From contig NZ_CALWJJ010000001.1 in assembly GCF_944380985.1 (NCBI RefSeq), forward strand, positions 62,001-126,000: a DNA stretch of 64,000 bases, in the 5' to 3' direction. How positions within the stretch are numbered: position 1 is the stretch's first letter; every line of letters starts with the position of its first letter. Both the position numbers and the translations under genes were made by a program. Of this stretch, positions 5,342 to 6,030 are shown piece after piece. This stretch comes from an uncultured Agathobaculum sp. (GTDB taxonomy: Bacteria > Bacillota > Clostridia > Oscillospirales > Butyricicoccaceae). The notes beneath the pieces were generated by a model. That model did not search any database, was not told the DNA's origin, and worked only from the letters and a program-made list of their open reading frames with translations.

Positions 5342-5695
5342 ACTTTATAAAACCTCCGATTTGTTTACACTGAGGCGTGTTTGCAAACACAGTATAGAGG
5401 CCGCCTCCGCCTCTGCAGCGCCGCGCTTTACACGTGCTTGTCGTGTTCACGTAAACCATCATCCCGCGCCATACTGCGCGGCAATTTATCTGGAAACAGG
5501 AAACTCCCGCTTCACACATTGCGCCTTCCGGCGCATTGCGATCAGAAAACGGCGCTCCGTTTTCCGCAAAAGTCCAGCTTTGCCGGACTTTTTATCCCCG
5601 GCCCAGGCGCCCTGGGCGCCGTTTTGGGGAATTGAAAGAAAGTGTCTATGGGCGCTTTCTTCCACATATAGAGGGCGGTCAGCCCCCATTAGTGT
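5342..5695 (-). other. Hairpin-rich intercistronic gap between rpmJ and rpsM
   Basis: About 354 nt without a convincing gene. It contains hairpin element E1 (5513-5630), several additional GC-rich palindromes near 5370-5480 and one near 5640-5690. Short frames here lack homology-like composition and run through palindromes. It is inside an operon, so it should be transcribed as RNA. Confidence 0.7.
5513..5630 (-). repeat. Composite hairpin element, copy E1
   Basis: In the direction of operon transcription (minus) it reads: conserved core ACGGCGCCCAGGGCGCC plus TGGGCCGGGG; an A-rich/T-rich hairpin (AAAAAGTCC...GGACTTTT); a hairpin GAAAACGG...CCGTTTTC; then a GCGCC/GGCGC hairpin ending AATGTGTG. 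The same order occurs at 5911-6030, and the core and outer parts recur at 59632-59764. Stem differences between copies are compensatory. I do not recognise a named family. Confidence 0.7.
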
Positions 5696-5809
5696 TTAGC
5701 CCTGCTTCTGCTTGTGCTTCGGGTTTTGACAGATAACCATGACCTTGCCCTTGCGGCGAATGATCTTGCACTTTTCGCAGATCGGCTTAACAGACGGTCT
5801 TACCTTCAT
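5696..5809 (-). CDS. rpmJ: 50S ribosomal protein L36
   Basis: A 37-residue L36 ([20 protein letters not shown], then [17 protein letters not shown]). Cys11, Cys14, Cys27 and His32 form the zinc ribbon, so this is the zinc-containing form. It is the last small protein assembled into the 50S core. The order infA-rpmJ-rpsM is normal, but here the gene is isolated by hairpin-rich gaps of about 350 and 290 nt, each carrying one copy of the same repeat element in the same orientation. Confidence 0.96.
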
Positions 5810-5910
5810 GACATTTTACCTCCATCAAAATTTTTTGGTGGGATGGGACACCGGCAAACCGGCGACCACTGGCGCTCGGGTCACTTACGCGCCTCCGCCC
5901 GCTTTTCATC

Positions 5911-6030
5911 ACAGACACATGCCGTTAGGCGTGCATCAATTTGAAATCGCCACGCGATTTCGGTCAAAAACGCGAGTTTCGCCCGCGTTTTTGACGCCCC
6001 GACTCAGCCGCCCTGGGCGGCGTTGTTCGG
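5911..6030 (-). repeat. Composite hairpin element, copy E2
   Basis: In transcription direction: core ACGCCGCCCAGGGCGGC plus TGAGTCGGGG; hairpin TCAAAAACGCG...CGCGTTTTTGA; hairpin GAAATCGC...GCGATTTC; then CACGCCTAACGGC followed by ATGTGTCTG. It matches E1 and E3 in order and in the core. The first-stem change from GGCGCC/GGCGCC in E1 to GCCGCC/GGCGGC here keeps pairing. It lies between infA and rpmJ, inside a gap of about 290 nt. Two more hairpins sit between it and infA: AAAAACAAG/CTTGTTTTT and ATAGAGAACTT/AAGTTCTCTAT, near 6035-6093. Confidence 0.7.

Follow-up and report, generated by a model that had tools for sequence, protein, structure and literature searches.

The described systems closest to the repeat considered here are three groups of small bacterial repeats, which we summarize from the accessible parts of the cited sources. 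BOX elements of Streptococcus pneumoniae, together with RUP and SPRITE, are small, dispersed, strongly base-paired intergenic sequences, presumed to be non-autonomous mobile elements and able to be co-transcribed with genes, and BOX is also modular; they are enriched between convergent genes, and 60.8–63.3% of them lie on the leading strand, matching the coding bias (PMC3049150, in part). ERIC/IRU and Correia/NEMIS are repeats of approximately 100–200 bp from proteobacterial hosts, with terminal inverted repeats and target-site duplications, and their transcripts form long stem-loops; ERIC acts on the upstream mRNA in an orientation-dependent manner, and NEMIS is a target of RNase III (PMC2229807, in part). 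REP sequences and REPINs are extragenic palindromes with compensatory changes in the variable stems, a REPIN being an inverted doublet associated with a RAYT gene of its own genome (PMC3116915, in part).

The repeat studied here is represented by three copies, E1, E2, and E3, in a 64,000-nt stretch of DNA from an uncultured Agathobaculum sp. (hereafter, the window). It shares the main features of the BOX/RUP/ERIC kind, being dispersed, multi-copy and intergenic, shorter than about 200–250 bp, strongly base-paired, and gained or lost at orthologous sites (14 of 15 other readable genomes in the genus lack a copy at the E2 site, and other sites show similar contrasts). As far as the accessible description of BOX, RUP, and SPRITE goes, the repeat is set apart from them by its surroundings: in place of convergent enrichment, three of 45 sites lie between convergent genes and 41 of 45 between genes of the same strand, with a ratio of sense to antisense sites of 39:2 (PMC3049150). 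In contrast to ERIC/IRU and Correia/NEMIS, neither a terminal inverted repeat nor a target-site duplication was seen by eye when E2 was compared with empty sites, with about 11% divergence in the infA flank for the best of the empty relatives; moreover, a tandem A–F layout of hairpins with interchangeable 5′ modules is absent from the accessible part of their description (PMC2229807). Finally, a REPIN is one palindrome doubled, whereas the present repeat consists of different hairpins, A to F, in a fixed order (PMC3116915, in part). In the genus, Y1 transposases exceeded the cut-off in four of 25 genomes, and none was present in the genome of the window, which rules out RAYT/REPIN mobilization in this genome. 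No description of such a repeat in these taxa was found in the open-licence literature of PubMed Central, and the best reading is that it forms a new family, BOX/ERIC-like in kind and differing in its strict sense orientation.

Copies in the Window

The three copies are found at the places given in the initial annotation of this DNA, E1 and E2 on the minus strand and E3 on the plus strand, each being sense to its flanking genes as read on the window. The gene pairs had also been named correctly, as confirmed by NCBIfam models. E2 has as its 5′ neighbor infA, encoding translation initiation factor IF-1 (6101..6319, minus strand, TIGR00008), and is followed by rpmJ, encoding ribosomal protein L36 (5696..5809, minus strand, TIGR01022), which is thus flanked by E2 and E1; the 3′ neighbor of E1 is rpsM, encoding ribosomal protein S13 (4973..5341, minus strand, TIGR03631). 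E3 is situated between pheS on its 5′ side (58537..59556, plus strand, TIGR00468) and pheT on its 3′ side (59802..62210, plus strand, TIGR00472).

As to the extents proposed initially, the core, hairpin D, and the final GCC/GGC hairpin all belong to the repeat, but its start had been set too late, as the core is separated from the stop codon by two further hairpins, A and B. In all three copies A and B precede the core hairpin C, whereas D, E, and F come after it, and the first hairpin is at most about 15 nt away from the upstream stop codon. According to the comparison of filled and empty sites across the genus, the complete E2 insert (5907..6100, minus strand, about 194 nt) spans from the infA stop codon to the conserved rpmJ upstream region. 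On the same strand, it comprises, by sequence and fold, hairpin A (6067..6093; a perfect 12-bp stem with a 3-nt loop, directly 3′ of the infA stop codon) and hairpin B (6036..6064); the core hairpin C, GCCGCC-CAG-GGCGGC-TGAGTC (5997..6032; pattern and covariance-model match, 93.9 bits); the A-rich/T-rich hairpin D (5963..5995) and hairpin E (5943..5961), both by fold and covariance model; and, by fold, hairpin F (5915..5936), which is the GCC/GGC hairpin with ATGTGYG of the initial annotation.

The other two copies are partially decayed. E1 in the rpmJ–rpsM gap (5517..5687, minus strand; covariance-model score 66.1 bits) contains hairpins A (5672–5687), B (5634–5663), C (5596–5629), D (5568–5593), E (5544–5566), and F (5517–5538). 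E3 in the pheS–pheT gap (59570..59765, plus strand; 89.3 bits), whose site was compared across 25 genomes, has a poor, decayed hairpin A (59570–59594), followed by B (59596–59627), C (59635–59664), D (59667–59701), a weak and nearly lost E (approximately 59705–59719), and F (59730–59746). Relative to dinucleotide shuffles, the fold z-scores are −6.3 for E1, −7.8 for E2, and −3.2 for E3. The stem of the core varies with the pairing retained (GGCGCC/GGCGCC in E1, GCCGCC/GGCGGC in E2 and E3), and so does the stem of D, both as originally noted.

Outside the repeat, strongly conserved GC-rich spacers common to the genus genomes read were observed upstream of rpsM (window positions approximately 5342–5510, minus strand) and rpmJ (approximately 5810–5906, minus strand), with sequences GTGAACACGACAAGCACG.. 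and GCGGGCGGAGGCGCG..GTGTCCCATCCCACC; they are candidate ribosomal-protein leaders with no Rfam match. The Rfam scan of the window also identified two T-boxes (57599–57811, minus strand, and 58184–58422, plus strand), a SAM riboswitch (41530–41634, minus strand), and an S10-Clostridia leader (19637–19700, minus strand).

Modular Structure of the Repeat

When the copies were aligned starting at the stop codon of the upstream gene, hairpins A and B became apparent ahead of the core; the whole repeat comprises about 190 bases with five or six partly interchangeable hairpins. In the Agathobaculum form, hairpin A consists of TATAGGGG.. plus its complement and overlaps the stop codon in several copies; hairpin B has a variable stem capped by GTTCC-NNN-GAAAC and is followed by the linker ATACCC; and the core C, GCCGCC-CAA-GGCGGC-TGRGTC, is followed by D, E, and F, the next start codon mostly being no farther than about 200 nt. 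The Oscillibacter form shares this core and D and has a different A and B. Overall, the modules follow the order A-B-C, A′-B′-C′, or A′-X, and then D-E-F. The core stem occurs as GGCGCC, GCGGCC, GCGCCC, and GCTGCC with matching partners, and as GTGATC with one G.U pair. Under all these variants the CAA/CAG loop is constant, and the TGRGTC bulge side is present in most copies, the invariance of the core in the first copy set being partly by construction, as this set was picked via the core pattern.

At loci L022/L048, L034/L243 (reversed), L059/L250, L077/L240, L146, L184/L185, and L261, the element is accompanied by a second small repeat (AGAAGGTGAATTGCCCC..GGGGCAAGAGAAG), which is nested within it or lies next to it, in many cases in hairpin loops, and occurs in both orientations. 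A third motif (GCCCGTAGGCC.CTATCC) was seen within or next to copies at L040, L066 (only partly alike), L136, L247, and, in the genome of the window, L092; its placement in the sequences suggests repeated insertion into pre-existing hairpins. At L042 (7268–7594), the contig end duplicates the start of the element and a part of the upstream gene, which is probably an assembly effect.

Distribution of the Repeat

The repeat constitutes a dispersed modular family of Agathobaculum, Butyricicoccus, Oscillibacter, and Dysosmobacter. Exact matches to the 26-base core pattern were found in 55 stretches of the GTDB species collection; those with a genus name in the title come only from Agathobaculum, Butyricicoccus, Oscillibacter, Dysosmobacter, or Pseudoscilispira, and the remaining titles are Oscillospiraceae, Eubacteriales, Clostridiales, or Clostridia bins. 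Viral contigs yielded one match to the core pattern, L022, whose element sequence is identical to that of the A. desmolans locus L048. In 12 genomes selected for having a copy, the core pattern with up to two mismatches produced 65 copies, from one to ten per genome, and the reversed pattern produced none. Thus, given 55 exact-core stretches and 65 loose-core copies against zero reversed ones, chance similarity is excluded.

A covariance-model search, suggested in the initial annotation as a check, likewise returned further copies both in the genome of the window and in its relatives. The model (R1) was built from 29 copies, namely, 26 loci of the first set and the three window copies; because of inserts or short ends, six of the 55 loci found by the pattern and the locus from viral contigs were excluded from the first alignment, as were two duplicates. 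In the genome of the window, 24 matches were obtained at E ≤ 10, with E-values down to 5e-22; three of them are strong (94, 89, and 66 bits), and the others are decayed copies, D-E-F pieces lacking the core, one reverse-strand match to E3, and chance-level matches. Matches at E ≤ 0.01 were obtained in 22 of 61 genomes sampled from the family, among them all eight genomes of the genus, and those outside the genus were mostly weak; the 4–58 matches per genus genome are an overcount, the reverse strand of the same copies scoring about 28–39 bits. G331, a genome of the same genus outside the family sample, had no match at E ≤ 1e-6. In the order-wide search, seven of 295 genomes had matches at E ≤ 1e-5, six of these in the genus; as the model scores the Oscillibacter form low (about 31–49 bits), this search says little about that form.

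None of the 4227 Rfam models matched the repeat copies in the window at the gathering threshold; at E ≤ 5, only sub-threshold matches of the chance kind were obtained for E1–E3, and the element at 15 loci with good copies also had no match at the gathering threshold, consistent with the initial remark that no named family with this layout is known.

These data bear on the explanation that the copies are terminator-like or otherwise unrelated hairpins, alike by composition. The arms of D and E are indeed A-rich/T-rich, as in bidirectional terminators, but the conserved core, about 26 bases long, is found across many species with zero matches in the reversed control, the copies lie within operons and lack a long U tract, and the E-values in the genome of the window are as low as given above. 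We consider this explanation refuted by the copy number and the conserved core, and assign it a negligible chance.

Position and Orientation Relative to Genes

The orientation of the copies was determined relative to genes called by a home-made codon-score caller, some calls of which are wrong (for example, rpmJ–rpsM loci L109 and L135 were called (+,−)). In the pattern set, both flanking genes were called for 45 of 59 copies, and 41 of these 45 are sense to both genes, the rest being two (+,−), one (−,+), and one (−,−). Similarly, 44 of 50 loci in the covariance-model-based set are sense to both genes (four are (+,−), one (?,+), and one (−,−)), as are 26 of 30 loci in a third set, comprising 30 of the 65 loose-pattern copies, with one (+,−), three incomplete, and no antisense loci; the three sets overlap. 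In the pooled set, where unique copies were clustered by flanking genes and each site took the label of most of its copies with both flanks called, 90 unique copies formed 49 sites: 39 (+,+), three (+,−), two (−,−), one (−,+), and four lacking one flank. At 45 of 48 pooled sites, the repeat and its upstream gene have the same sense. Between same-strand genes, 39 sites are sense and two, L063 and L123, are antisense (p = 8e-10), and same-strand sites themselves are overrepresented (41 of 45, compared to 108 of 174 background gene pairs from the window and 20 stretches of genome G329; p = 1e-4). The distance from the stop codon to the core has a median of 76 nt (46 sites), 76% of the values falling within 50–90 nt, a position that may resemble that of integron attC sites.

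In G329, two of eight strong copies (pheS–pheT and grpE–dnaK) are situated in genes on the lagging strand, as defined by the GC skew of 20 stretches, and both are sense. Hence, the orientation tracks transcription and not replication, and the possibility that it is dictated by replication is ruled out.

Some copies that are not near a stop codon are placed after a different transcript end. At L054, a full copy is located about 20 nt behind the large bacterial SRP RNA (L054 2901–3166, plus strand), and at L157, the upstream copy lies behind a terminator-like hairpin of the pheS leader. The gene-end rule may extend to RNA genes.

The initial placement of the repeat inside translation operons turned out to be an effect of the window content. 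The scan of host genes (20 sites and 30 proteins, three of them without a family; gene names are inferred from Pfam domains) demonstrated that the host operons are ordinary housekeeping ones, beyond translation, with such host pairs as pyrF–carA, HPr–uvrC, ilvC–ilvD, thiolase–crotonase, speD–speA, rpmA–obgE, argS–S41 protease, rplI–dnaB, thiI–cinA, and grpE–dnaK. A translation-operon-specific regulator is thereby ruled out, the host genes being functionally unrelated. The same fact speaks against a broader explanation, namely, that the repeat is a vertically inherited cis-regulatory RNA, a leader or attenuator sensing a ligand or a protein. Such an RNA would agree with the conserved loops and linkers next to variable stems, with the sense orientation, and with the retention of orthologous sites across many species; however, the position of the repeat tracks gene ends rather than regulon membership, some sites are empty in relatives of the same genus, and no Rfam model matches, so we regard cis-regulation as improbable.

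Gain, Loss, and Exchange of Modules

Shared sites were compared across the 25 genomes of the genus. The infA–rpmJ site, occupied by E2 in the window, is filled in only one (G338) of the 15 other readable genomes, according to the segments read by eye. In the pheS–pheT gap, ten of the 25 genomes have type I, two (G005 and G329) have type I together with a type II module in inverted orientation, seven have type II (A′-B′-C′-D′), one has type III (A′-X-D-E-F), one (G339, by-eye label) has an A–D fusion, and four have none. The rpmJ–rpsM gap is filled in all 18 readable genomes, the one of the window included, with type I in 12 (two of them, G339 and G041, labeled by eye as decayed) and type III in six. 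Thus, at both sites different 5′ modules substitute for one another. Further filled/empty contrasts were seen by eye at pheS–pheT, in the pheS leader, and at rpsJ, where a copy behind the gene in G329 is missing from the window. The pheS tree of the 25 genomes, with two of 22 inner branches starred, is too unresolved for counting module changes; the near pair G000/G054 differs at both pheS–pheT and rpmJ–rpsM.

In the pheS–pheT gaps of G330 and G331 (L163 and L164), which contain none of types I–III, another apparent small repeat (GTAATTAGTAATGAGTAG..) was observed instead.

In most pheS–pheT comparisons, the repeat diverges more slowly than fourfold sites. The identity of the A–D part exceeds that of pheS fourfold sites in 46 of 55 type I pairs (means 0.787 vs. 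0.699) and in all 21 type II pairs (0.857 vs. 0.710), calculated on aligned bases only, with gaps ignored, for non-independent pairs of genomes, type I being represented by 11 of 12 genomes (without E3 itself). The rest of the pheS–pheT spacer, including E and F, also exceeds the fourfold sites (0.756 vs. 0.699 for type I and 0.801 vs. 0.710 for type II). The low divergence could have arisen through gene conversion or transfer.

Covariation in the Stems

The initial annotation had also named significant covariation as a check, and covariation is strong in our own count, made with a hand-written structure on the MAFFT alignment of 29 copies: 22 of 34 pairs have two-sided changes, with 119 such cells compared to 36 in shuffles and 20–40 in slid controls. 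Relative to the commonest pair, the 119 two-sided cells stand against 23 one-sided standard pairs and 76 unpaired cells. The covariation is present in D and E.

Selection on mRNA should favor G.U pairs, and these do not exceed A.C mismatches in the stems (21 vs. 46 in the first count, 87 vs. 134 under neutral scoring, and 87 vs. 83 when hairpin B of the Agathobaculum form is removed); therefore, we see no signature of the mRNA strand. The excess of A.C comes mainly from one conserved C.A in that hairpin B. It had made the antisense strand a candidate for the structured one; the candidate was dropped, as elsewhere A.C and G.U are about equally frequent. The mean folding energies of the sense and antisense strands are −90.6 and −92.2 in 46 copies (p = 0.07) and −87.4 and −87.7 in 28 copies (p = 0.8); E1 and E2 are more stable in the sense direction, and E3 in the antisense one (−67.4 sense vs. 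−77.7 antisense). With no excess of G.U and no clear difference in stability between the strands, the palindromes look strand-symmetric. The symmetry is broken by the module order and the conserved loops, and most of all by where the repeat lies and how it is oriented relative to transcription.

The initial annotation had offered two options, an RNA structure under selection and a mobile palindromic repeat of transcribed regions. The second is well supported by the many dispersed copies, empty sites, module swaps, and sense bias in Agathobaculum and in the Oscillibacter group. The first is less firm: the covariation is strong, but G.U is not in excess over A.C and the strands are similar in stability. 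Therefore, the palindromes may instead be maintained at the DNA level.

A rival explanation is that the repeat is purely parasitic DNA with no use for the host, whose palindromes serve its own mobility by forming hairpins on single-stranded DNA, the compensatory changes arising by template switching or conversion and the sense bias by insertion tied to transcript ends. It agrees with the prevalence of two-sided over one-sided changes, the absence of G.U preference and of a clear strand difference, and the presence, absence, and decay of copies; according to the accessible part of PMC8794818, template switching can create and maintain hairpins, and the two-sided stem changes could have originated in this way. 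On the other hand, both the divergence below that of fourfold sites in most pheS–pheT pairs and the occupancy of rpmJ–rpsM in 18 of 18 genomes with swapped modules exceed what plain decay would leave, although conversion or re-insertion could mimic them, and the compared small repeat families are not described with such a sense bias in the accessible parts of their sources. A purely parasitic repeat is, in our opinion, quite possible, but not the probable explanation.

Discussion

Comparison of the copies places this repeat family behind gene ends, in the sense orientation, with a constant module order and with both filled and empty sites among relatives. Our best reading of these observations is that the repeat serves polycistronic mRNA as a hairpin spacer, or is at least tolerated in that role. 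In the window, E1, E2, and E3 are three copies of this dispersed modular repeat, which is likely mobile and is predicted to act as a sense-oriented mRNA hairpin spacer behind gene ends, a model for which we see the chances as evenly balanced.

The model would operate as follows. From the filled and empty sites, we infer that the repeat is non-autonomous and mobilized by an agent acting in trans. It would land behind a gene end in the sense direction and, presumably, be co-transcribed with its host operon. In the mRNA, it is predicted to form a hairpin spacer that would protect the upstream message at its 3′ end and hold it apart from the next gene. A more specific variant, which we consider doubtful, is that the copies are mobile RNA cassettes of interchangeable hairpin modules, inserted after gene or transcript ends in the sense direction by a transcript-linked mechanism and kept as punctuation of housekeeping mRNAs, so that the modules turn over, while the site stays filled.

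Small bacterial repeats are often considered parasitic, and strict following of transcription is not reported for the compared families in the accessible parts of their descriptions. A repeat that is found behind gene ends within conserved operons, almost exclusively in the sense orientation, provides a natural test of repeats as mRNA boundaries in common gut bacteria, as well as of the ways in which an inserting repeat could sense transcription. If the hairpin-spacer reading is true, it would account for some of the structure seen between cistrons in these little-studied genomes and provide ready-made mRNA spacers for study.
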